Positions 2,609 through 40,899 of a stretch of 64,000 nt of DNA are shown piece by piece. The notes beneath the pieces are model-generated. The model was not told where the DNA came from, did no database searches, and worked only from the letters and a program-made list of their open reading frames with translations. Source of the DNA: Tsuneonella sp. CC-YZS046 (GTDB lineage: Bacteria; Pseudomonadota; Alphaproteobacteria; Sphingomonadales; Sphingomonadaceae); assembly GCF_035581365.1 (NCBI RefSeq), contig NZ_CP141590.1:124001-188000 (forward strand), written 5' to 3'. The position numbers and the translations under genes were made by a program. Positions within the stretch are counted from its first letter, which is position 1, and the number at the start of each line of letters is the position of its first letter.

Positions 2609-2830
2609 GCTCTGATCTGCTCCCATATGTCCGGCTCTGTCACGATGCATATGGAACGTCAACGATGATGTGGAAAATTGGCGTTTGACCGAGGCATTTC
2701 CCTGATTGTCTGGCAAATTGCCGGAGCGGCAACAAAAGGGCGGAAATTCGAGGAAGGAGAAGCATCGTGATGGGGCTGATAGCTCCGGCCGATACGGCTT
2801 TCTTGCTCTGTATCGGCAAGGAATGTGGAA

Positions 2831-2850
2831 ATTCCACGATACCATTGACA
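2831..2850. promoter_or_regulatory. class A operator half-site and promoter in divergent region
   Basis: The minus strand reads GTATCGTGGAAT here, the same 11-12-mer found at 9307 and 11068 and close to the site at 6419. The second arm is poorly kept (4 of 8 positions), so this is a half-site. On the plus strand TTGACA (2845-2850) followed after 17 bp by GATCGT could be a promoter for the ligase at 2965. The site lies between the divergent BVMO and ligase genes. Confidence 0.5.
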
Positions 2851-6302: not shown

Positions 6303-6410
6303 CCGTCGCACCGGCCCAGCGCCGGTAGCTACACAACCATTCATTCCTGCAGCCTGCTCGCCGGAGAGAGGAGAGTTGCGTCTCCCCTCCCGGCACGTTA
6401 GCAATAAGCG

Positions 6411-6430
6411 ATTCCACGGAGTCGTGGAAT
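6411..6430. promoter_or_regulatory. class A palindromic operator, perfect 8-4-8
   Basis: The arms ATTCCACG and CGTGGAAT are exact inverted repeats around GAGT. It lies about 30 bp upstream of the first -35 element of the TonB receptor promoter region. It matches the sites at 9298 and 11060 and the half-site at 2831. The arm and spacer geometry fits a TetR dimer. Confidence 0.75.
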
Positions 6431-6445
6431 GAAGTTGGGCAGTCT

Positions 6446-6465
6446 GTTCAACGAGAACGTTGACG
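6446..6465. promoter_or_regulatory. class B operator overlapping a -35 element
   Basis: The sequence is GTTCAACG-AGAA-CGTTGACG, with 6 of 8 arm positions paired. Its right arm contains the -35 hexamer TTGACG (6460-6465), which is followed after 17 bp by TATCGT. Binding here would compete with RNA polymerase. Related sites are at 15979, 16043, 22511 and 40642. Confidence 0.65.
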
Positions 6466-6555
6466 TGATCGCTTGGAGTGGCTATCGTAGGAACAAATAA
6501 GATTACCTCTGCAAACGCTCCCGGTCCGCGAAAGGATCGGGATCGAGACGATGCC

Positions 6556-6575
6556 TTGCAACAGCAGTGTTGTTG
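6556..6575. promoter_or_regulatory. class C operator next to second TonB receptor promoter
   Basis: The sequence is TTGCAACA-GCAG-TGTTGTTG, with 5 of 8 arm positions paired including the whole CAACA/TGTTG core. It overlaps the start of a second -35 TTGACG (6573-6578), which is followed after 17 bp by TATCTA. Related sites are at 33434, 33769 and 40773. Confidence 0.55.
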
Positions 6576-6664
6576 ACGCGATTCTTTAAGGAGGTTATCT
6601 AGAAGGCAGCAAAGCCAATAAGCTTGCGCTCGCAAAGCGGGCAGCATGAAGAAGGGGAGGAGAG

Positions 6665-9040
6665 ATGAAAATGGAAACATACAACAGTGGTGTGTTCGGA
6701 GTTGGGCTGAAGGTGGTCCTGCTGGGTTCGGCTGCGCTCGCCGCGGCTCCCGCCATGGCCCAGTCGAGCAGTAGTTCCGGCGGGCTTGGCGAAATCGTCG
6801 TCACCGCCACGAAACGCGCCGAAAATTTGCAGGACGTTCCGGTCAGTATTTCCGCCATCGGTTCGGAGCAGCTCGCATCGCGCGGCGTCACTTCCTCGAA
6901 CGATCTCGGTGCGGTGGTTCCCAACCTGCAGGTCAGCTCGCAATATGGTGAAACCTCGCCGAACTTCTCGATGCGCGGCGTTGGCGTGACGAATGAGTTC
7001 GCGGCAAACACGGCGTCTCCGATTGGCGTATATGTCGATGAAGTCAGCCAGACCTTCCGTTATACCCACGGCCTGCAGCTTTACGATCTGGATCGGGTCG
7101 AGGTTCTGCGCGGGCCGCAGGGCACCTTGTTCGGGCGCAATACCACGGGCGGCGCGATCAGCATGTATACGCGTCAGCCGCAACTGGGCGAGGCGAACGG
7201 CTATTTGACCGTCGGCTATGGCAATTATGACCGCTGGAAGCTGCAGGGCGCGGTTGAGGCAACGCTGGTCGAGGATCAGGTAGGCGTGCGCGTGGCGTTC
7301 AACCGGGTCAAGGGTGACGGCTATTTCAAGGAGCCTGATGCCGGTTTCCGCGCAAACGGCCCGGACAGCTACGGTTCCTCCGATTCCATCGGCGTGCGCG
7401 GCAATCTGCGGATCAAGCCCAATGAGGATTTGGATATCAAGATTGGCGGTTACTACGCCAAGGACGATCCGGTGGGCTATCCGTTGCATTACATCGGATT
7501 GGTCGGGATGGACGCCAACGGGAACGGCGGGACCGATATCGTCGGCAGCACCCGTCAGGGCGGCATCACTCCCAATGGCGATGTCTGCTGCAGCTACAAT
7601 GAAGTTTCATTCGACAAGGGTGGAAAATATATCACCAAGTCGTGGGGGCTTTCGCTCAACATCAACTACCAGATCAGCGATAACTGGTCGATCACTTCGG
7701 TCACCGGCTACACCAAGTCGGATTACAAGCTGAACATCGACAATGATGCAAGCTACAATGACGTCTATTTCATTATCTATGGGTCGAAGGGCAAGGATTT
7801 CAGCCAGGACTTCCGGGTCAACTATGACAGCGATCGGTTCAAGGGGCTGCTCGGCGTCTATTATGGCAAGGACAGCATCCGTTCGAGAAACGAGGTCATG
7901 GCCTACAATTTCCTTCCGGACGCCACCAGCGTCCTCGATTGGGCCCCGGGCTTGTCGACCTCGCTCAACGTCCTGTTCGGCTACAACCAGAAGCGTGAAA
8001 CATTCGCGGTGTATGGCGAAGGCACCTTCGACATCACCGACAAGCTCGCTCTGACCGCCGGCCTTCGCTATACCAAGGATCATGTGGACTTCCTGGACGC
8101 CTATTCGGCGCCCTACACGGATTTCCCGGGCACGCAGCTCGACCTCTTCGGGGACCCGTTCTTCCTGTTCAACGATGCCAATATCAAGAACAGCTACGAT
8201 AACTGGTCGGGCCGCGCGATTCTGAACTATGCCTGGACCGACGAGATCAAGACCTATGTCAGCTTCAGCCGTGGCTATCGTTCGGCAACCTATAATGGCT
8301 ACGGCTTCATCGATCAGAACGCGATCTACTTCGTCGAGCCGGAACGCCTCGATTCCATCGAGTTCGGCTTCAAGACCCGCTTCGCCAACGACCGTGTGCA
8401 GCTGAACGGCGCATTGTTCCACTATGACTACAAGAAGCAGCAGGTTCAGGAAGTCATCGGCGGCGTCGCCTATCTGCGCAGTCTCGATGCAAAGGTGAAG
8501 GGCGCCGAACTGGAATTGCTGGCTAAGCCGATCCCCGCACTGACCCTGCGCGGTTCGCTGGGCTATCTCGATACCAAATACAAGAACGGCCAGCCCCTCA
8601 GCATGATCGAAATCGGCGGGAATGAAATTCCGTTCGCGTCGAAATGGACGCTCAGCTTCGGCGGCGACCTGACCTTGGGCAATGTCGCCAGCGGCGACAT
8701 CGTATTCAGTGGCGAGGTCGCTTATAAGAGCAAGGTGTTCTACGATCCGTTCAACGATAATATCCGGCCTGACCCGACCGGCCTCTATGGCGGCGACCCG
8801 GACCCGACTGACGGCATTCCCGCAGGGCAGACGGACCTTGTCCAGGGCAAGGGTTACGCGCTGGTCAATGCCAGTCTGGCCTGGAACAGCAACAACCTGC
8901 AGGTTCGCTTCTGGGGCAAGAACATCTTCGACAAGAAATATTATCCGTTCGGCTATGATACGGCCGGGGCTTTCGGCACCGTTCTGCTTACGCCAGGGCA
9001 GCCGCGCACCTATGGCGTGGAAGCCACGATCAAGTTCTAG
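6665..9040 (+). CDS. TonB-dependent outer membrane receptor
   Basis: A 791-residue outer membrane transporter expected to take up a bulky or hydrophobic substrate with energy from TonB. A signal peptide ends near AMA-Q (residue 32). The plug domain follows, starting with GEIVVTATKRAENLQDVPV and including LRGPQGTLFGRNTTGGAI. The rest is a beta barrel ending in an aromatic residue (ATIKF), as required for outer membrane insertion. The subtype is typical of sphingomonads and is usually annotated without a substrate. Its gene stands alone behind an unusually rich control region, next to BVMO and hydrolase genes, which points to uptake of the catabolic substrate rather than iron. Confidence 0.93.
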   Translation: MKMETYNSGVFGVGLKVVLLGSAALAAAPAMAQSSSSSGGLGEIVVTATKRAENLQDVPVSISAIGSEQLASRGVTSSNDLGAVVPNLQVSSQYGETSPNFSMRGVGVTNEFAANTASPIGVYVDEVSQTFRYTHGLQLYDLDRVEVLRGPQGTLFGRNTTGGAISMYTRQPQLGEANGYLTVGYGNYDRWKLQGAVEATLVEDQVGVRVAFNRVKGDGYFKEPDAGFRANGPDSYGSSDSIGVRGNLRIKPNEDLDIKIGGYYAKDDPVGYPLHYIGLVGMDANGNGGTDIVGSTRQGGITPNGDVCCSYNEVSFDKGGKYITKSWGLSLNINYQISDNWSITSVTGYTKSDYKLNIDNDASYNDVYFIIYGSKGKDFSQDFRVNYDSDRFKGLLGVYYGKDSIRSRNEVMAYNFLPDATSVLDWAPGLSTSLNVLFGYNQKRETFAVYGEGTFDITDKLALTAGLRYTKDHVDFLDAYSAPYTDFPGTQLDLFGDPFFLFNDANIKNSYDNWSGRAILNYAWTDEIKTYVSFSRGYRSATYNGYGFIDQNAIYFVEPERLDSIEFGFKTRFANDRVQLNGALFHYDYKKQQVQEVIGGVAYLRSLDAKVKGAELELLAKPIPALTLRGSLGYLDTKYKNGQPLSMIEIGGNEIPFASKWTLSFGGDLTLGNVASGDIVFSGEVAYKSKVFYDPFNDNIRPDPTGLYGGDPDPTDGIPAGQTDLVQGKGYALVNASLAWNSNNLQVRFWGKNIFDKKYYPFGYDTAGAFGTVLLTPGQPRTYGVEATIKF

Positions 9041-9297: not shown

Positions 9298-9317
9298 TTT
9301 CTACAGTATCGTGGAAA
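9298..9317. promoter_or_regulatory. class A operator before BVMO gene
   Basis: The sequence is TTTCTACA-GTAT-CGTGGAAA, with 6 of 8 arm positions paired and the GTATCGTGGAA core shared with 11068 and the minus strand at 2842. TATCGT inside it could be a -10 element. It ends only 17 bp before the BVMO start codon, a position where binding would block transcription or early elongation. Confidence 0.65.
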
Positions 9318-11059: not shown

Positions 11060-11079
11060 AATCCACGGTATCGTGGAAT
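11060..11079. promoter_or_regulatory. class A operator before amidohydrolase gene
   Basis: The sequence is AATCCACG-GTAT-CGTGGAAT, with 7 of 8 arm positions paired. TTGAGG (11047-11052) and TATCGT (11069-11074) form a possible promoter with a 16-bp spacer, so the operator would cover the -10 element. The start codon lies 133 bp further on. Confidence 0.7.
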
Positions 11080-13532: not shown

Positions 13533-13612
13533 GTCATTTATCGCCTTTGTCGAAAGTTGATCGGCTAATTTCGGGGGAGAGAGGCGGCCTCCCGGCCGCC
13601 GCGATCGAGCGC

Positions 13613-14263
13613 ATGGTGAAAGCATCCAATATTTCGAAACGTCGGGAATCCGCCCTCAAGGAAGGGAGCGCGGATTATCTCGCGAAGCGCGATGAGCTGG
13701 TCCGAATCGCGGCGCAGCAGTTCAAGCAGAGCGGCTATCGCGCCACGACCCTGGCCGAGATAGGCCACAAGGCCGGTTTGGACCGGGCCACGGTCTATTA
13801 CTATTTCGGGAGCAAGGAAGAATTGTTCCGGGAGATTCTGCGCACCGGAGTCGACCAGAATATTCGTGAATGCGTGAAGATCTCCCAGAACGACAAGCTG
13901 GATTCGCTGGAGAAGCTGCAGGCGATAATCCAGCAGCTGATGAAGGCATATGACGAGCATTACCCGCACATGTATGTGTATATTCAGGAGGAAATGGATC
14001 GGATCGCGAGCGAGAAGAGCGTCTGGGCGCAGGAACTCGCCGGACAGACCCGCAAGTTCGAGAAGATCGTGATGGGATTGATTTCCGAAACCATCGCGGC
14101 GGGAAAGATGCGTGACGATATCCCCGTCTCGATCGCGGCCAACGCCATCTTCGGAATGCTCAACTGGACGCATCGCTGGTATCAGCCGGGCGGGGCGCAT
14201 GGCGCGGACGAGGTGTCGAGATCGTTTGCAAGGATATTTCTCGACGGGATGAGGCCGCGCTGA
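13613..14263 (+). CDS. TetR family regulator, 216-residue type (copy 2)
   Basis: A TetR regulator with the helix-turn-helix part GLDRATVYYYFGSKEELFRE and a C-terminal domain containing HYPHMYVYIQEE and MLNWTHRWYQP, the same two segments seen in copies 1 and 3. ATG at 13613 gives 216 residues, exactly the length of the other two; a TTG at 13547 would add 22 residues but has no ribosome site. Genes on both sides (SDR on the minus strand, ligase convergent) are candidate targets. A single AGTTGAT half-site is seen at 13555, within the gap before this start. Confidence 0.88.
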   Translation: MVKASNISKRRESALKEGSADYLAKRDELVRIAAQQFKQSGYRATTLAEIGHKAGLDRATVYYYFGSKEELFREILRTGVDQNIRECVKISQNDKLDSLEKLQAIIQQLMKAYDEHYPHMYVYIQEEMDRIASEKSVWAQELAGQTRKFEKIVMGLISETIAAGKMRDDIPVSIAANAIFGMLNWTHRWYQPGGAHGADEVSRSFARIFLDGMRPR

Positions 14264-15910: not shown

Positions 15911-15978
15911 TCCTTCTCTCCGATTCCCGGCATCTTATTCCTTGCCTTGATCTGAAAATGCGCGGCCGGGCCATTTCT

Positions 15979-15998
15979 GTCAACGTTGAAGTTGATAA
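15979..15998. promoter_or_regulatory. class B operator over minus-strand -35 element
   Basis: The sequence is TGTCAACG-TTGA-AGTTGATA, with 6 of 8 arm positions paired. Read on the minus strand it contains TTGACA (15984 to 15979), which is followed after 17 bp by CATTTT, a possible promoter for the ligase that starts at 15910. Confidence 0.68.
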
Positions 15999-16042: not shown

Positions 16043-16062
16043 TATCAACGTATGCGTTGATA
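16043..16062. promoter_or_regulatory. class B operator, perfect 8-4-8, over plus-strand -10
   Basis: The arms TATCAACG and CGTTGATA are exact inverted repeats around TATG. TTGACA at 16019-16024 and TATCAA at 16043-16048 form a promoter-like pair (18-bp spacer) for the LLM operon, so the operator covers the -10 region. This is the best example of the class. Confidence 0.78.
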
Positions 16063-22510: not shown

Positions 22511-22530
22511 AGTCAACTTTCGTGTTGACC
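22511..22530. promoter_or_regulatory. class B operator with strong promoter
   Basis: The sequence is AGTCAACT-TTCG-TGTTGACC, with 6 of 8 arm positions paired. Its right arm contains TTGACC (22525-22530), followed after 17 bp by CATAAT (22548-22553), a good promoter for the operon that begins at 22576. Confidence 0.68.
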
Positions 22531-25218: not shown

Positions 25219-26028
25219 TTGGCCGAACGGCGCGCCACAAGTGAGAGATTGACGCGTTATCCGGCGAATCCGAAGTATGGGACAGGCGCCTATCGCCGCC
25301 GCATCTGCTTCACCGCTTCCCCAGGCGGAATGACGGTTTCTTTGTTCGATGACTTCCATGAAATGGTGGTCGAGATCGGCCATGACGGGCGCCGGGTAAT
25401 CGCCGTCGATGCCGAGATGCGGCGCTTCCCCAAGACGACCTGCCAGGGCGCGATTGCCCTGCTGCAGGCGTTTGTCGGCTGCACTATCGCCGATGGCCGT
25501 TATGCCATTGCCGGCAAGTTCAATCGCGGGCCGCACTGCACCCACCTGATCGACTTGACGACCTGGGGCATTTCCGCGCTCCAGCGCGGCGTGGAGGATC
25601 AATGGATCGAAATCGCCCTGACCGATCCCGATCCGGACGGGCGGCAATCGCTCGATCTGTCCGTGAATGGCGAAATGGCGCTGCGCCTCTCGATCCTCCA
25701 TGAATGCCTGGAATTGCCCGCGCAGCATGCCGGGCAATCGCTGTTCGGCGGATTCACGCGCTGGGCCGACGAGAATTTCTCCGGCTTCGAGCGCGACTTG
25801 TGGCACATGGCGCAGATGGCGGCGTTCGTTTCGCATGGCCGCGCCTATGTGGTCGATGGGCCGGTGCCTTTCGCCTCGGCGGATGAGCCTTCACGCAAGG
25901 GTGCGTGCTACAGCTATAGCGATCCCGCCTATCGGACCGCGCTGGATATTGTCGGCTATGTGCGCGACCACACGCGGGGCTTGCCGCCGCGCGACCGTGC
26001 CAGCGAGAGAATCCGGGGGCAAGCATGA
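25219..26028 (+). CDS. DUF2889 family protein
   Basis: About 270 residues with the DUF2889 pattern: an N-terminal RRRICFTASPGG, then DDFHEMVVEIGHDGRRVIAVDAEMRRFPKTTCQGA, and NRGPHCTHLIDL. No enzyme activity is established for the family. Conserved Cys and His residues (TTC, CTH) could bind metal or act in catalysis. TTG at 25219 starts two bases after the crotonase stop, TTG at 25201 is an alternative. The gene overlaps RibB by four bases. Its place between crotonases and RibB suggests an enzyme step on a CoA ester or lactone, but this is a guess. Confidence 0.75.
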   Translation: MAERRATSERLTRYPANPKYGTGAYRRRICFTASPGGMTVSLFDDFHEMVVEIGHDGRRVIAVDAEMRRFPKTTCQGAIALLQAFVGCTIADGRYAIAGKFNRGPHCTHLIDLTTWGISALQRGVEDQWIEIALTDPDPDGRQSLDLSVNGEMALRLSILHECLELPAQHAGQSLFGGFTRWADENFSGFERDLWHMAQMAAFVSHGRAYVVDGPVPFASADEPSRKGACYSYSDPAYRTALDIVGYVRDHTRGLPPRDRASERIRGQA

Positions 26029-27140
26029 CCCGTATCGCCACGATCGAGGACATCATCGACGATGCCCGCAACGGCAGGCCCTTCATCCTGGTCGATGCGG
26101 ACGACCGGGAGAATGAAGGGGATATCGTGATACCGGCGCAATTCGCGACGCCGGAGCGGATTGCCCATATGGCCACCCATGCAAGAGGGCTGATCTGCCT
26201 TGCGATAACCGCCCAGCGCGCGGCGCAGCTTGAGCTTGAACAGATGTCGCGAGACAATCGTTCCGGGCATGGCACCGCCTTCACCGTGTCGATCGAGGCG
26301 GCGCAGGGCGTCACCACCGGCATTTCCGCTTTCGACCGGGCCAGGACGATTTCCGTCGCGATCAATCCTGCCAACGGGCCGGACGACATCGTCACCCCCG
26401 GGCATGTGTTCCCGCTCGTGGCGCGCGATGGCGGGGTGCTGATCCGGGCCGGACACACGGAAGCCGCGGTGGACGTCTCCCGCCTCGCCGGCCTGATGCC
26501 CGCGGGCGTGATCTGCGAAATCATGAATCCGGACGGCACCATGGCGCGCCTGCCCGATCTGCTTCCCTTTGCCGAGCGGCACGGCTTGAAGATCGGGACC
26601 ATCGCCGATCTCATTGCCTACCGGCGCAAATCCGAAAAGCTCGTCCAGCTGGTCGTCAGGGCCCCGTTCGAGACGCATTTCGGGGATGGCTTCTTCATCC
26701 AGGTGTATCGCGATCTTATCGATCGGGCCGAGCATGTTGCCCTCGTGCGCGGCCATATCCGGCCGGAGGGCGAAACGCTGGTCCGCGTTCATCAGGTGGA
26801 TCTGACGGCCGATATGCTGGGATACAAGCATGCCCATCGCGATTACGTGTCGCGGATGCTCGAACGGCTGGCCAGCCACGATGGTCCCTCGGTGGCGGTC
26901 TTCGTGCGCGATCCCGATCCGGAATCGATCTCGCGCCGGGTGCAGGGCGGGCGGCAGGACTACAGCAACCGCTACGGCTCTCGCGACTATGGCATCGGGG
27001 CGCAGATCCTGCGCGATCTGGGCGTCACGCGCATGAACCTGCTGACTTCCAGTTCGGGCAAGATGGCCGCGCTGGAGGGCTTCGGCCTTGAAGTGACGGG
27101 GCGGACGCCGATCATCGAGGAAACAGGAGAAGCCGCATGA
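26025..27140 (+). CDS. ribB: 3,4-dihydroxy-2-butanone-4-phosphate synthase with degenerate GTP cyclohydrolase II domain
   Basis: Makes the four-carbon riboflavin precursor from ribulose 5-phosphate. The N-terminal RibB domain (about residues 1-205) is intact: DDRENEGD at 26-33, RSGHGTAFT and RAGHTEAAVDV carry the metal and substrate residues. The C-terminal part follows the RibA fold (VALVRGHI, YGIGAQILRDLGV, LLTSSSGK) but lacks all the zinc cysteines, so GTP cyclohydrolase activity should be absent. This layout is common in alphaproteobacteria. It lies inside a catabolic operon rather than with rib genes, and the window encodes at least eight flavin-dependent oxygenases, so it may be a dedicated flavin-supply gene. 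Confidence 0.9.
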   Translation: MTRIATIEDIIDDARNGRPFILVDADDRENEGDIVIPAQFATPERIAHMATHARGLICLAITAQRAAQLELEQMSRDNRSGHGTAFTVSIEAAQGVTTGISAFDRARTISVAINPANGPDDIVTPGHVFPLVARDGGVLIRAGHTEAAVDVSRLAGLMPAGVICEIMNPDGTMARLPDLLPFAERHGLKIGTIADLIAYRRKSEKLVQLVVRAPFETHFGDGFFIQVYRDLIDRAEHVALVRGHIRPEGETLVRVHQVDLTADMLGYKHAHRDYVSRMLERLASHDGPSVAVFVRDPDPESISRRVQGGRQDYSNRYGSRDYGIGAQILRDLGVTRMNLLTSSSGKMAALEGFGLEVTGRTPIIEETGEAA

Positions 27141-32279: not shown

Positions 32280-33365
32280 TCAGGCGGCGACGCGGCTGCG
32301 CGCGCTCATCCTGCGCAATTCCGGCATGACCTGTTCAGCGAACAGCTTCAGGCTGTTCTGCGCCACGGGGAACGGAATGCCGCCGGACGACACGATCAGC
32401 ATCGCGTTGAAATCGCCGACCAGTTCCATCCGCTCGCGATATTTCTCGATGACCTGCTTCGGGGTGCCGTAATTCTGCGCCTCGATATAAGTCTTCTGAG
32501 ATTCCTCCAGTCCCGCCGATTTTATCAGGTCTGCCCCGGCCTGATAGCTTTCATAGCCGCGGATATTCTTGAAGTGATCGCCGGCGAATTCGTAGTGATC
32601 CGTCACCGCGATGAAGTGATTGCCGATATGCTCGTAAGCCAGGCGCCGGGCTTCTTCCTCGTCCTCGTGGATCACCGTCACGTCGGTCAGCACCGGCGGC
32701 GGCGCCTCGCGCCCATGAACCTTGCGGAAACGTTCCCGATAGAGTTCGATCATCGGCATGTGGCGTTCGAAGGCGAACTGGATGAAGGTCATCATCGAGC
32801 CGCCCAGCTCCGCCGCGGCTTCCGCTGAATCGTTGGACATGGCCACGCAATAGAGCGCATCGCGATAGCCGCGCAGCGGCCGCGGGCGGATGTCCACGCG
32901 CGGCTGCTGGAACAGTTCCGTATCGCTTTCCATGTAGCCCTTGTCGAGCGCGTCCAGCACCAGGCGGGCGCCTTCCTCGAAGCGGCCCCGCGCCTCTTCC
33001 ATGGGGACGCGGAAGCCGCGATACTCGCGGCGGGCAAGACCCCGCCCGATCCCCAGCGCGACCCGGCCCGGCGCGAAATATTCGAGGACGGCCATCTTTT
33101 CCGCGACGCGCAGCGGATCGTTCCAGGGCAGGATCACCGCGCCCGGAACCAGCTTCGCATTCCTGGTTCGGGTGGCGAGATAGGAGAGATACTGGATATT
33201 GTCGGGGCAGAGGCCATAGTCCTCGAAATGATGTTCGACGCACCAGAGTGAATCGAAACCGAGGCGATCGGCGGCGATGGCAAGATCAATCTCGCCTTCG
33301 AACATTTGCTGATCGCTGAGATCCTTGTGCCAGTTCTGCATGACATTCAGGTGGCCGATTTCCAT
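32280..33365 (-). CDS. LLM class flavin-dependent oxidoreductase
   Basis: A 361-residue luciferase-like protein. SLWCVEHHFEDYGLCPDN, PGAVILPWNDPLRVAEKMAVLEYFAPGRVALGIGRG and the C-terminal GTPKQVIEKYRERME are typical of bacterial luciferase-like monooxygenases. The EHHF motif is intact. ATG at 33365 is followed downstream by the MDR reductase gene. The upstream gap carries a class C operator at 33434. Substrate unknown. Confidence 0.87.
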   Translation of the reverse strand: MEIGHLNVMQNWHKDLSDQQMFEGEIDLAIAADRLGFDSLWCVEHHFEDYGLCPDNIQYLSYLATRTRNAKLVPGAVILPWNDPLRVAEKMAVLEYFAPGRVALGIGRGLARREYRGFRVPMEEARGRFEEGARLVLDALDKGYMESDTELFQQPRVDIRPRPLRGYRDALYCVAMSNDSAEAAAELGGSMMTFIQFAFERHMPMIELYRERFRKVHGREAPPPVLTDVTVIHEDEEEARRLAYEHIGNHFIAVTDHYEFAGDHFKNIRGYESYQAGADLIKSAGLEESQKTYIEAQNYGTPKQVIEKYRERMELVGDFNAMLIVSSGGIPFPVAQNSLKLFAEQVMPELRRMSARSRVAA

Positions 33366-33433: not shown

Positions 33434-33453
33434 TTGCAACACAGTTGTTGTGA
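33434..33453. promoter_or_regulatory. class C operator near LLM/MDR operon
   Basis: The sequence is TTGCAACA-CAGT-TGTTGTGA, with 6 of 8 arm positions paired and an exact CAACA/TGTTG core. It lies 69 bp upstream of the LLM start on the minus strand. Confidence 0.6.
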
Positions 33454-33768: not shown

Positions 33769-33788
33769 TTACAACAGGTGTGTTTCAA
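33769..33788. promoter_or_regulatory. class C operator before hydrolase operon
   Basis: The sequence is TTACAACA-GGTG-TGTTTCAA, with 6 of 8 arm positions paired. It lies just upstream of TTGCCA (33794), a possible -35 of the hydrolase operon. Confidence 0.55.
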
Positions 33789-39931: not shown

Positions 39932-40582
39932 TCAATAGGGGGATTCGAGACCGGACAGGATCATTTCGGCGTAGGTCTTGCCGATCTCCTCGGCGCTGAC
40001 CTCGCTGCTGGCGGGCCGGAACCAGCGATGGGTCCAGCCGATGATGCCGAATATCCCATAGGCGACCACGCGCGCCGAACCGACTTTGCGGAAGCTGCCG
40101 TCGGCAAAACCTTCCTCGATCACCGCGATCATCGCTTCTGTAGTCTCTCGGTTCATTTCACGCATCTGCTGCGACCATTCGGACCTTTCATCGCTGACAT
40201 GCGACAGGTTTTCCCGAATATATATGTAAAACAGTGGGTAATGCTCGCCGTAGGAACTCATTACCGAGGTAATCATGTCTCGCAGCTTGCGCCGTGGCTG
40301 CACCTTGCTCTCGGCGATGCGGCGGACCAGCTGCAGATTGCGCTCGACGACGGTTCGCACGACTTCGTCGAAAAGCTCCTCTTTCGAGGAAATATAGTAA
40401 TAGAGGGTGGAGCGGTCGACCTTCATTTCCTGCGCCACCGCCGATATCGTCGCCTTCTGGAAGCCGAGGCGGTCGAACACGCGCACGGCCGCGTCGGCAA
40501 TTTCCTTGCGCCTTGCCTCATAGGCGACAGGATCGGCCTCAACGGCGGCGCGCCGCTGCTCGATCACGCTGAGCTTGGCCAT
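39932..40582 (-). CDS. TetR family regulator, 216-residue type (copy 3)
   Basis: A TetR protein with helix-turn-helix part VDRSTLYYYISSKEELFDE and C-terminal segments HYPLFYIYIREN and IIGWTHRWFRP, matching copies 1 and 2. ATG at 40582 (MAKLSVIEQ) after AGAGGAC gives 216 residues; upstream extension of the frame crosses operators and is not coding. It is divergent from the LLM/beta-oxidation operon. A class B site lies 60 bp upstream of its start and a class C site further on, so it likely regulates itself and that operon. Confidence 0.9.
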   Translation of the reverse strand: MAKLSVIEQRRAAVEADPVAYEARRKEIADAAVRVFDRLGFQKATISAVAQEMKVDRSTLYYYISSKEELFDEVVRTVVERNLQLVRRIAESKVQPRRKLRDMITSVMSSYGEHYPLFYIYIRENLSHVSDERSEWSQQMREMNRETTEAMIAVIEEGFADGSFRKVGSARVVAYGIFGIIGWTHRWFRPASSEVSAEEIGKTYAEMILSGLESPY

Positions 40583-40641
40583 GTCCTCTGCTATCGTCCT
40601 TCCCCTTGCTCGATCTTGCCCGGTAAGCGCCGACCCGATCC

Positions 40642-40661
40642 TGTCAACGTCCGTGTTGCCA
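40642..40661. promoter_or_regulatory. class B operator upstream of TetR copy 3
   Basis: The sequence is TGTCAACG-TCCG-TGTTGCCA, with 6 of 8 arm positions paired. On the minus strand it ends in TTGACA (40647 to 40642), a likely -35 for the regulator gene itself, which suggests autoregulation. Confidence 0.62.
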
Positions 40662-40772
40662 CTGGAGGGATAAATGATAGAACTTTTTATATCCTCGGCA
40701 AGTCGGGATACTCGGGAAAAGCCAGCGAACTTCATGGAATACGCACTGGCTTGATCCACTGTGCGGTTGACG

Positions 40773-40792
40773 CTGCAACACATGTGTTGTAG
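40773..40792. promoter_or_regulatory. class C operator in promoter of LLM/beta-oxidation operon
   Basis: The sequence is CTGCAACA-CATG-TGTTGTAG, with 7 of 8 arm positions paired and a 14-bp perfect core. It fills the 17-bp spacer between TTGACG (40767-40772) and TAGCCC (40790-40795), the classic place for a repressor. Confidence 0.72.
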
Positions 40793-40899
40793 CCCGGATG
40801 GCATGTCGGGTCGCAAGTCTGAAGGCTCGAAAAAGGAACGGCGCCTGCATGAGCGCTGGATCGCCGCCCGAAGGCGGCGTGTCGGGAGAGGAGTGCTGG

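Follow-up and report, generated by a model that had tools for sequence, protein, structure and literature searches.

How sphingomonads time the production of their many TonB-dependent receptors is, to our knowledge, poorly understood, and the promoter examined here raises the question of how many repressor inputs a single receptor gene may answer to. The window, i.e., the whole 64,000-nucleotide stretch that was analyzed (positions 124001 to 188000 of a single-contig, 3.35-Mb genome whose close named relatives belong to the Sphingomonadaceae), carries a catabolic cluster encoding FAD monooxygenases, several luciferase-like monooxygenases, acyl-CoA ligases and enoyl-CoA hydratases, along with one acyl-CoA dehydrogenase, one P450, two TonB receptors and TetR regulators. 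One receptor gene (6665-9040) encodes both a plug (PF07715) and a beta-barrel (PF00593) domain, which identifies its product as a TonB-dependent receptor; its position in the cluster suggests a putative role in import of the pathway substrate. As for the nature of this substrate, nothing was found on the enzyme set in the open-access titles and abstract beginnings that were searched.

Palindromes and promoters upstream of the receptor gene

Three 8-4-8 palindromes (A, B and C) precede the receptor gene (Table 1). The initial annotation had described A as a perfect palindrome, an arm of B as the first -35 box and C as abutting a second -35 box, with two promoter-like pairs of 17-bp spacing. A recheck of the sequence confirmed this observation, and the coordinates of the palindromes and promoter elements were all right. 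The arms of A pair at every position, the 4-bp center excepted, and the right arm of B contains the -35 box of the first promoter, P1. The position of C was correct as well, but its contact with the -35 box of the second promoter-like element, P2, is a 3-base overlap and thus more than abutting. While both 17-bp spacers stood, only P1 passed a sigma-70 consensus scan as a good match; P2 fell below the pass mark of the stricter scan and is the weaker match of the two. The spacing of A and B is 35 bp.

Table 1. Features of the receptor promoter, the TetR paralogues and the predicted operators in the window
Feature	Position	Strand	Details
TonB-dependent receptor, 791 aa	6665..9040	+	PF00593 127.2 bits, PF07715 64.2 bits
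T1, TetR repressor, 216 aa	5652..6302	+	PF00440 58.1 bits, PF17932 65.4 bits; T1 clade in tree
T2, TetR repressor, 216 aa	13613..14263	+	PF00440 55.3 bits, PF17932 83.3 bits (longer ORF 13547-14263)
T3, TetR repressor, 216 aa	39932..40582	-	PF00440 44.1 bits, PF17932 63.9 bits (longer ORF 39932-40816)
Operator A (predicted), T1-type	6411..6430	.	ATTCCACG-GAGT-CGTGGAAT; 8/8 arm positions pair
Operator B (predicted), T1-leaning, T2 possible	6446..6465	.	GTTCAACG-AGAA-CGTTGACG; 6/8 arm positions pair
Operator C (predicted), T3-type	6556..6575	.	TTGCAACA-GCAG-TGTTGTTG; 5/8 arm positions pair
Promoter P1	6460..6488	+	TTGACG 6460-6465, 17 bp, TATCGT 6483-6488; 9/12, 0.1 expected
Promoter-like P2	6573..6601	+	TTGACG 6573-6578, 17 bp, TATCTA 6596-6601; 8/12
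T1-type operator before monooxygenase gene 989-2608	2657..2676	.	22.1 bits; in training set
T1-type operator, divergent promoter shared with 2657 site	2831..2850	.	20.0 bits; in training set
T1-type operator before monooxygenase gene 9335	9298..9317	.	18.5 bits; outside training set
T1-type operator (class A) before amidohydrolase gene 11213	11060..11079	.	19.9 bits in training; 15.4 bits left out
T2-type operator between acyl-CoA ligase and luciferase-like genes	15978..15997	.	Class B; in training set
T2-type operator, TATCAACG palindrome, same promoter as 15978	16043..16062	.	Class B; in training set
T3-type operator before luciferase-like gene 32280-33365 (-)	33434..33453	.	Class C; in training set
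T3-type operator before operon 33928+	33769..33788	.	Class C; in training set
Ambiguous operator before T3 gene	40642..40661	.	TGTCAACG/TGGCAACA; T2 18.6, T1 16.1, T3 15.6 bits
T3-type operator between T3 and luciferase-like gene 40849	40773..40792	.	Class C; in training set

The cluster encodes three TetR paralogues, T1, T2 and T3, all of which score above the curated cut-offs for PF00440 (24 bits) and PF17932 (TetR_C_24; 26.4 bits). As annotated initially, each has 216 residues, a length that relies on the gene-caller starts (5652, 13613 and 40582; own script). Palindromes were found at and near the three regulator genes, and ligand-released binding of these operators by T1, T2 and T3 is predicted. 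A phylogenetic tree, in which 8 of 24 inner branches are well supported, separates the T1, T2 and T3 groups. It joins the window T1 with that of genome G397 (100/99), the window T3 with those of G397, G398 and G071 (96/95) and the window T2 with that of G397 (91/77); the tree was built without the T2 of G398, which was missed by the gene caller and found by tblastn, and without the T2 of G071. A T2 orthologue is absent from G366, G087, G081 and Sphingopyxis sp. FD7 (G122), in which the best T2 matches were the genomes' own T1/T3-like genes (no more than 35% identity). The recognition helices of T1 and T2 are near-identical (DRAT[IV]YYYF), which makes cross-binding plausible. A fourth relative of T1-T3 (48% to T1) lies at a distant site in the genome that encodes these three (L075:10640-11281). 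In FD7, plasmid pSFD01 carries decayed T1-like regulator fragments next to a transposase gene of the IS3 type (L062:10728-11216).

To evaluate the abundance of such palindromes, the core pattern CMACRN4YGTKG was searched, with the reversed pattern as a control. Three cores were observed in 6303-6664, compared to two or more in 0 of 100,000 Markov-1 samples of the same region. Genome-wide (3.35 Mb), the core occurred 48 times and the reversed control 22 times. Eleven of the 48 cores fall in 44 kb (G000:C1:120568-164789); three of these lie in the receptor promoter and one is intragenic. The Markov samples and this clustering together make a chance origin unlikely. T1-homologue regions were then taken from the 12 of 397 family genomes, counting that of the window, in which a match reached E 1e-45, and G397 and G398 were added via receptor matches. 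The regions from this set of 14 genomes comprised 174,284 intergenic bases with 70 cores and 725,574 coding bases with 17 cores, i.e., an about 17-fold higher intergenic density per base. In more distant relatives, forms close to TGTCAACA-N4-TGTTGACA were frequent by eye. A core was located within 400 bp of 10 of the 16 TonB genes in TetR-bearing regions (the receptor gene counted) and of 0 of 7 TonB genes in other loci, a count drawing on 20 of 22 loci; that TetR is missing was verified in the L026 and L027 genomes. Enrichment and conservation thus support the operators as real, with binding predicted.

Arrays of operators were also seen outside the window. Three operators precede a further TonB receptor gene of G366 (L043:17883-18094), in a promoter divergent with a monooxygenase gene. 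An operator pair 23 bp apart precedes the T1-adjacent TonB gene of G087 (L044:9637-9679), G081 (L046:9871-9913) and FD7 (L061:20701-20743). Three stacked operators occupy the promoter between ligase and luciferase-like genes near a T2-like gene in G036 and G176 (L105:7933-8044 and L106:10541-10652), indicating that stacking recurs in this regulon.

Operator classes and their regulators in related genomes

Each class was said to occur elsewhere at pathway operons, and this was borne out for A (11060, with hybrids at 2657 and 2831), B (15978 and 16043) and C (33434, 33769 and 40773). Sorted by module, the sites take the form TTTCCACG/NGTCAACR at T1, TATCAACG at T2 and mostly NN[AG]CAACA at T3. 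The T1 class was seen at the T1 modules of the window, G397, G398 and G366. Sites of the T2 class were found at the ligase/luciferase-like module beside T2, and NN[AG]CAACA-type sites at the T3/luciferase-like module, in the window, G397, G398 and G071. In the divergent promoter of the T1 module, located between the FAD monooxygenase gene and the ligase-SDR-T1 genes, NGTCAACR-N4-YGTGGAA is present in the window, G397, G398, G366 and G071, the ligase gene not being called in G397 and G071. The monooxygenase/ligase promoter of G087, G081 and FD7 has CAAC on both sides, not CCAC. These three genomes and G366 carry CCAC-type sites elsewhere near T1, and since all four have T1 and lack T2, the CCAC half, and with it operator A, appears to be tied to T1 rather than to T2. 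Taken together, the comparison across related genomes supports the view that operator classes track orthologous regulators.

The exact 18-mer TTCCACGATACCGTTGAC was found in 4 of the 14 genomes (G000, G397, G366 and G071). CCAC-type matches without T1 occur in G176, G094 and G071; in the latter, the contig stops 225 bases past the SDR gene that T1 follows elsewhere, which may account for its CCAC sites without T1. By eye, a CCAC half was present in 21 of 55 intergenic cores in T1-bearing genomes versus 0 of 15 in T1-less genomes. Once loci L104-L106 were added, it was found in 2 of 27 cores of T1-less genomes, and more matches were present in G094, such that exclusivity of CCAC half-sites to T1 genomes, considered at one point, was weakened. 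A T2-type palindrome missed by the strict core pattern, AGTCAACTTTCGTGTTGACC, lies before a SnoaL-like gene of the window (22511-22530), and similar sites accompany the SnoaL-like gene in G397, G398 and G071.

Predicted assignment of the receptor operators to repressors

To assign A, B and C, we built profiles of 8-base half-sites from T1 (9 sites), T2 (6 sites) and T3 (8 sites) modules, leaving out all receptor promoters. The training sites were picked by gene position and are therefore not independent of the hypothesis, although they included neither A, B and C nor any site at the orthologous receptors. The monooxygenase-gene site of G071 is outside the T1 set because the search pattern missed it, and site 40642, claimed clearly by no profile, was put in the T3 set by position. 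With full training, A scored 22.8 bits as T1, 3.5 as T2 and -0.4 as T3, B scored 18.2, 10.8 and 8.9, and C scored 6.0, 5.0 and 22.8, respectively. When training was restricted to other genomes (5, 4 and 4 sites), the scores were 19.8, 6.2 and 0.6 for A, 19.0, 11.8 and 5.3 for B, and 7.0, 7.5 and 22.4 for C. The margin of A as T1 and of C as T3 is at least 13 bits, also without the training sites of this genome, which makes the predicted assignments of A and C a little stronger. In 2000 bootstraps of the near sets, A and B were always placed with T1 and C always with T3; with wider sets, B was placed with T1 in 1995 of 2000. The assignments were stable after dropping 11060, after dropping all sites of this genome, or when only four sites adjoining the T1 operon were kept. 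In a leave-one-out test of an earlier training set, 18 of 21 sites were assigned correctly; L083:8774, window 40642 and L081:6054 were not. In control loci (238,678 bases), 0 profiles reached 16 bits, and 14 bits was reached at 0, 1 and 2 places.

That three classes amount to three inputs, as initially annotated, is not supported as stated, given that B fits T1 over T2. With B scoring better as T1, and with most class A sites outside the receptor promoter being CCAC/CAAC hybrids (as at 2657 and 2831), A and B look like two T1 operators; the best reading of the sites is two T1 operators 35 bp apart, with C as a T3 operator. We also considered that B could merely be a -35 box and rejected it, since the left arm accompanies 12 of 27 intergenic YGTTGAC occurrences in regulon loci versus 1 of 15 in controls. 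The profiles thus support two predicted repressor inputs at the receptor promoter, and a third is possible. Of the broader claim that several signals control the receptor, what stood is that the sites are enriched and conserved, that the TetR proteins are sisters and that class follows regulator; three separate inputs were not supported as stated. Within the window, only the receptor promoter combines a T1-type and a T3-type site that are both clear. A promoter of G397, at L081:5852-6073, between genes like window 33928 and 32280, likewise has a T1-type site (5852) and a T3-type site (6054), which makes the receptor promoter less special.

Orthologues of the receptor, about 73% identical, are present in G397 and G398. 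A search of named genomes yielded 17 loci, two of them above 70% identity, and among the matches listed for 149 genomes around G397 (E 1e-180, 6 candidates scored per genome) only G397 and G398 appeared. Besides the window's own, the matches listed for the 397 family genomes (E 1e-150, 2 candidates scored per genome) included only receptors of 43% and 41% identity; the genus was sampled by one other genome, 67% complete. A MAFFT alignment of the three orthologous receptor promoters gave no trustworthy columns, and sites were thus read by eye and then by profile. The G397 promoter, at which half-site TTGCAACA of C recurs, has a T3-type site upstream (TTGCAACACTGCTGTTGAAA, 25.2 bits as T3) and a TCAACG-like operator (GATTAACGCTAGCGTTGACA) on the -35 box, 17 bp before TATTGC by eye; no promoter in this region passes the sigma-70 scan. 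It lacks a T1-type site even though T1 adjoins. In G398, CATCAACGGGTATGTTGACA lies on the -35 box and is the one operator shown there. These -35 operators of G397 and G398 were best as T2 in 2000 and 1919 of 2000 bootstraps with the near sets and in 1951 and 1781 of 2000 with the wider sets. All three promoters thus have an operator on the -35 box, two of the three have a T3-type site and one has a class A site, with the sites arranged in differing order. Conservation in relatives, proposed as a check by the initial annotation, is therefore observed for the type of input but not for the layout.

A model of receptor control and its alternatives

A TetR dimer positioned over or beside a -35 box blocks RNA polymerase. 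We consider it probable, from the site assignments, that two or more of the TetR paralogues jointly repress the receptor gene, which undergoes OR-like derepression by at least two intermediates, a model that draws on three orthologous promoters only. T1, encoded directly upstream of the receptor gene, would hold A and B; at B it would cover the -35 box of P1 and block RNA polymerase there, possibly aided by cooperation with another T1 dimer bound at A. T3 would hold C, touching the -35 box of P2 and blocking this promoter. Since C lies about 60 to 80 bp downstream of the expected P1 start, T3 may also hinder or slow P1 transcripts. Upon appearance of the T1 ligand or the T3 ligand, the matching repressor would leave and one promoter would open, so that release of either one would produce OR-like logic, in which T3 might additionally act as a brake on P1.

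The most likely ligands are acyl-CoA compounds that arise as intermediates in the T1 and T3 modules. KstR2 has ligands of the CoA thioester class, and its operator differs from these palindromes. Its structures (PDB 4w1u and 4w97) are among the closest solved relatives of T1 (E 9.9e-16, with sequence similarity alone being measured), and this kinship, together with the response of MbdR to 3-methylbenzoyl-CoA, makes acyl-CoA ligands likely.

An alternative is a three-input promoter, with T1 at A, T2 at B and T3 at C, each released by its own intermediate. We regard it as unlikely. T2 is encoded in the same cluster, the TCAACG half is common to T2 sites, and the -35 operators of the G397 and G398 receptors score highest with the T2 profile. 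However, B in the window is 7 bits better as T1 than as T2, in a comparison for which the T2 set is small (6 sites), and its halves GTTCAACG and CGTCAACG are found at T1 modules and do not begin with TA, as the near T2 sites usually do. Quite unlikely too is the possibility that a single regulator, either T1 or freely cross-binding paralogues, occupies all three sites for tighter repression and no signal integration. Each T1-linked TonB gene of G087, G081 and FD7 is preceded by two operators, with 400 bp containing no additional core, three-site stacks such as L105:7933-8044 recur in the regulon, and the recognition helices are alike; yet C scores far higher as T3 than as T1, and its half-site is the one that recurs at the G397 promoter. 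Finally, the palindromes could have arisen by chance around two -35 boxes, given that parts of the right arms of B and C coincide with TTGAC and that both palindromes pair imperfectly. This strongly disfavored explanation is very improbable in view of the enrichment, the class conservation and the control counts.

According to the available passages of the papers cited here, parts of this arrangement have precedents. MbdR, a TetR protein that represses 3-methylbenzoate degradation in Azoarcus sp. CIB, has 3-methylbenzoyl-CoA as inducer and was shown to block polymerase when bound over or beside the -35 box (PMC4424350). As is predicted for the present system, a TetR homodimer with an acyl-CoA inducer is matched by palindromic operators that are spread over several promoters within a single catabolic cluster, the operators overlap -10/-35 elements and one promoter (P3R) has three of them; unlike here, these passages describe one regulator with one operator code, ATACN10GTAT, and neither a TonB receptor target nor a mix of paralogues (PMC4424350). 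In Sphingobium sp. SYK-6, the cluster-encoded repressor DdvR acts on the TonB receptor gene ddvT and a catabolic gene, with induction by the substrate, but it is a single regulator of the MarR type (PMC6874591). Loss of PheR, a catabolic-operon repressor of Sphingobium sp. SHPJ-2, likewise raises TonB receptor expression; PheR differs from T1-T3 in belonging to the IclR family, and its receptor effect comes from transcriptomics (PMC13273656). In the bsd I cluster of Caenibius tardaugens, another sphingomonad catabolic cluster, the TetR gene EGO55_16300 lies beside amidohydrolase and transporter-type genes and palindromes were proposed as operators; these (ATAGGGCCATTG and GCATGCGGGATGC) are unlike A, B and C, a distinction drawn from the palindromes and not from the proteins (PMC12882949). 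Repression of a TonB receptor and a catabolic gene by one regulator is hence already known from DdvR/ddvT, with PheR suggesting the same, as are palindromic TetR operators on catabolic promoters from MbdR. What appears to differ here, judging from the predicted sites, is that three repressor paralogues have operator codes separate from one another, and that the receptor promoter mixes at least two of these codes. No description of this operator system was found in the titles, abstract beginnings and passages of the open-access literature searched.

We tentatively propose, as a possibility that we do not favor strongly, that duplicated repressors split an ancestral operator, about TGTCAACA-N4-TGTTGACA, into codes for each pathway segment, and that the receptor gene kept operators of two or three of these codes, distributed here over two promoters, to act as an OR gate for several intermediates whose repressors turn over between species while multi-input control is kept. 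The diverged half-sites CCACG, TCAACG and [AG]CAACA and their TetR paralogues would form a natural series for studying how repressors escape from cross-talk. If the uptake promoter has several repressor inputs, more than a single product of the breakdown pathway could influence uptake, and with the receptor promoter, the three sister repressors and the predicted operator codes laid out, such integration is directly testable. Within the same cluster, a riboflavin synthesis gene (26025-27140) whose product combines DHBP synthase and GTP cyclohydrolase II domains fits the many flavin monooxygenases encoded there, and a ribB gene is likewise present in the cluster of Sphingopyxis sp. FD7.
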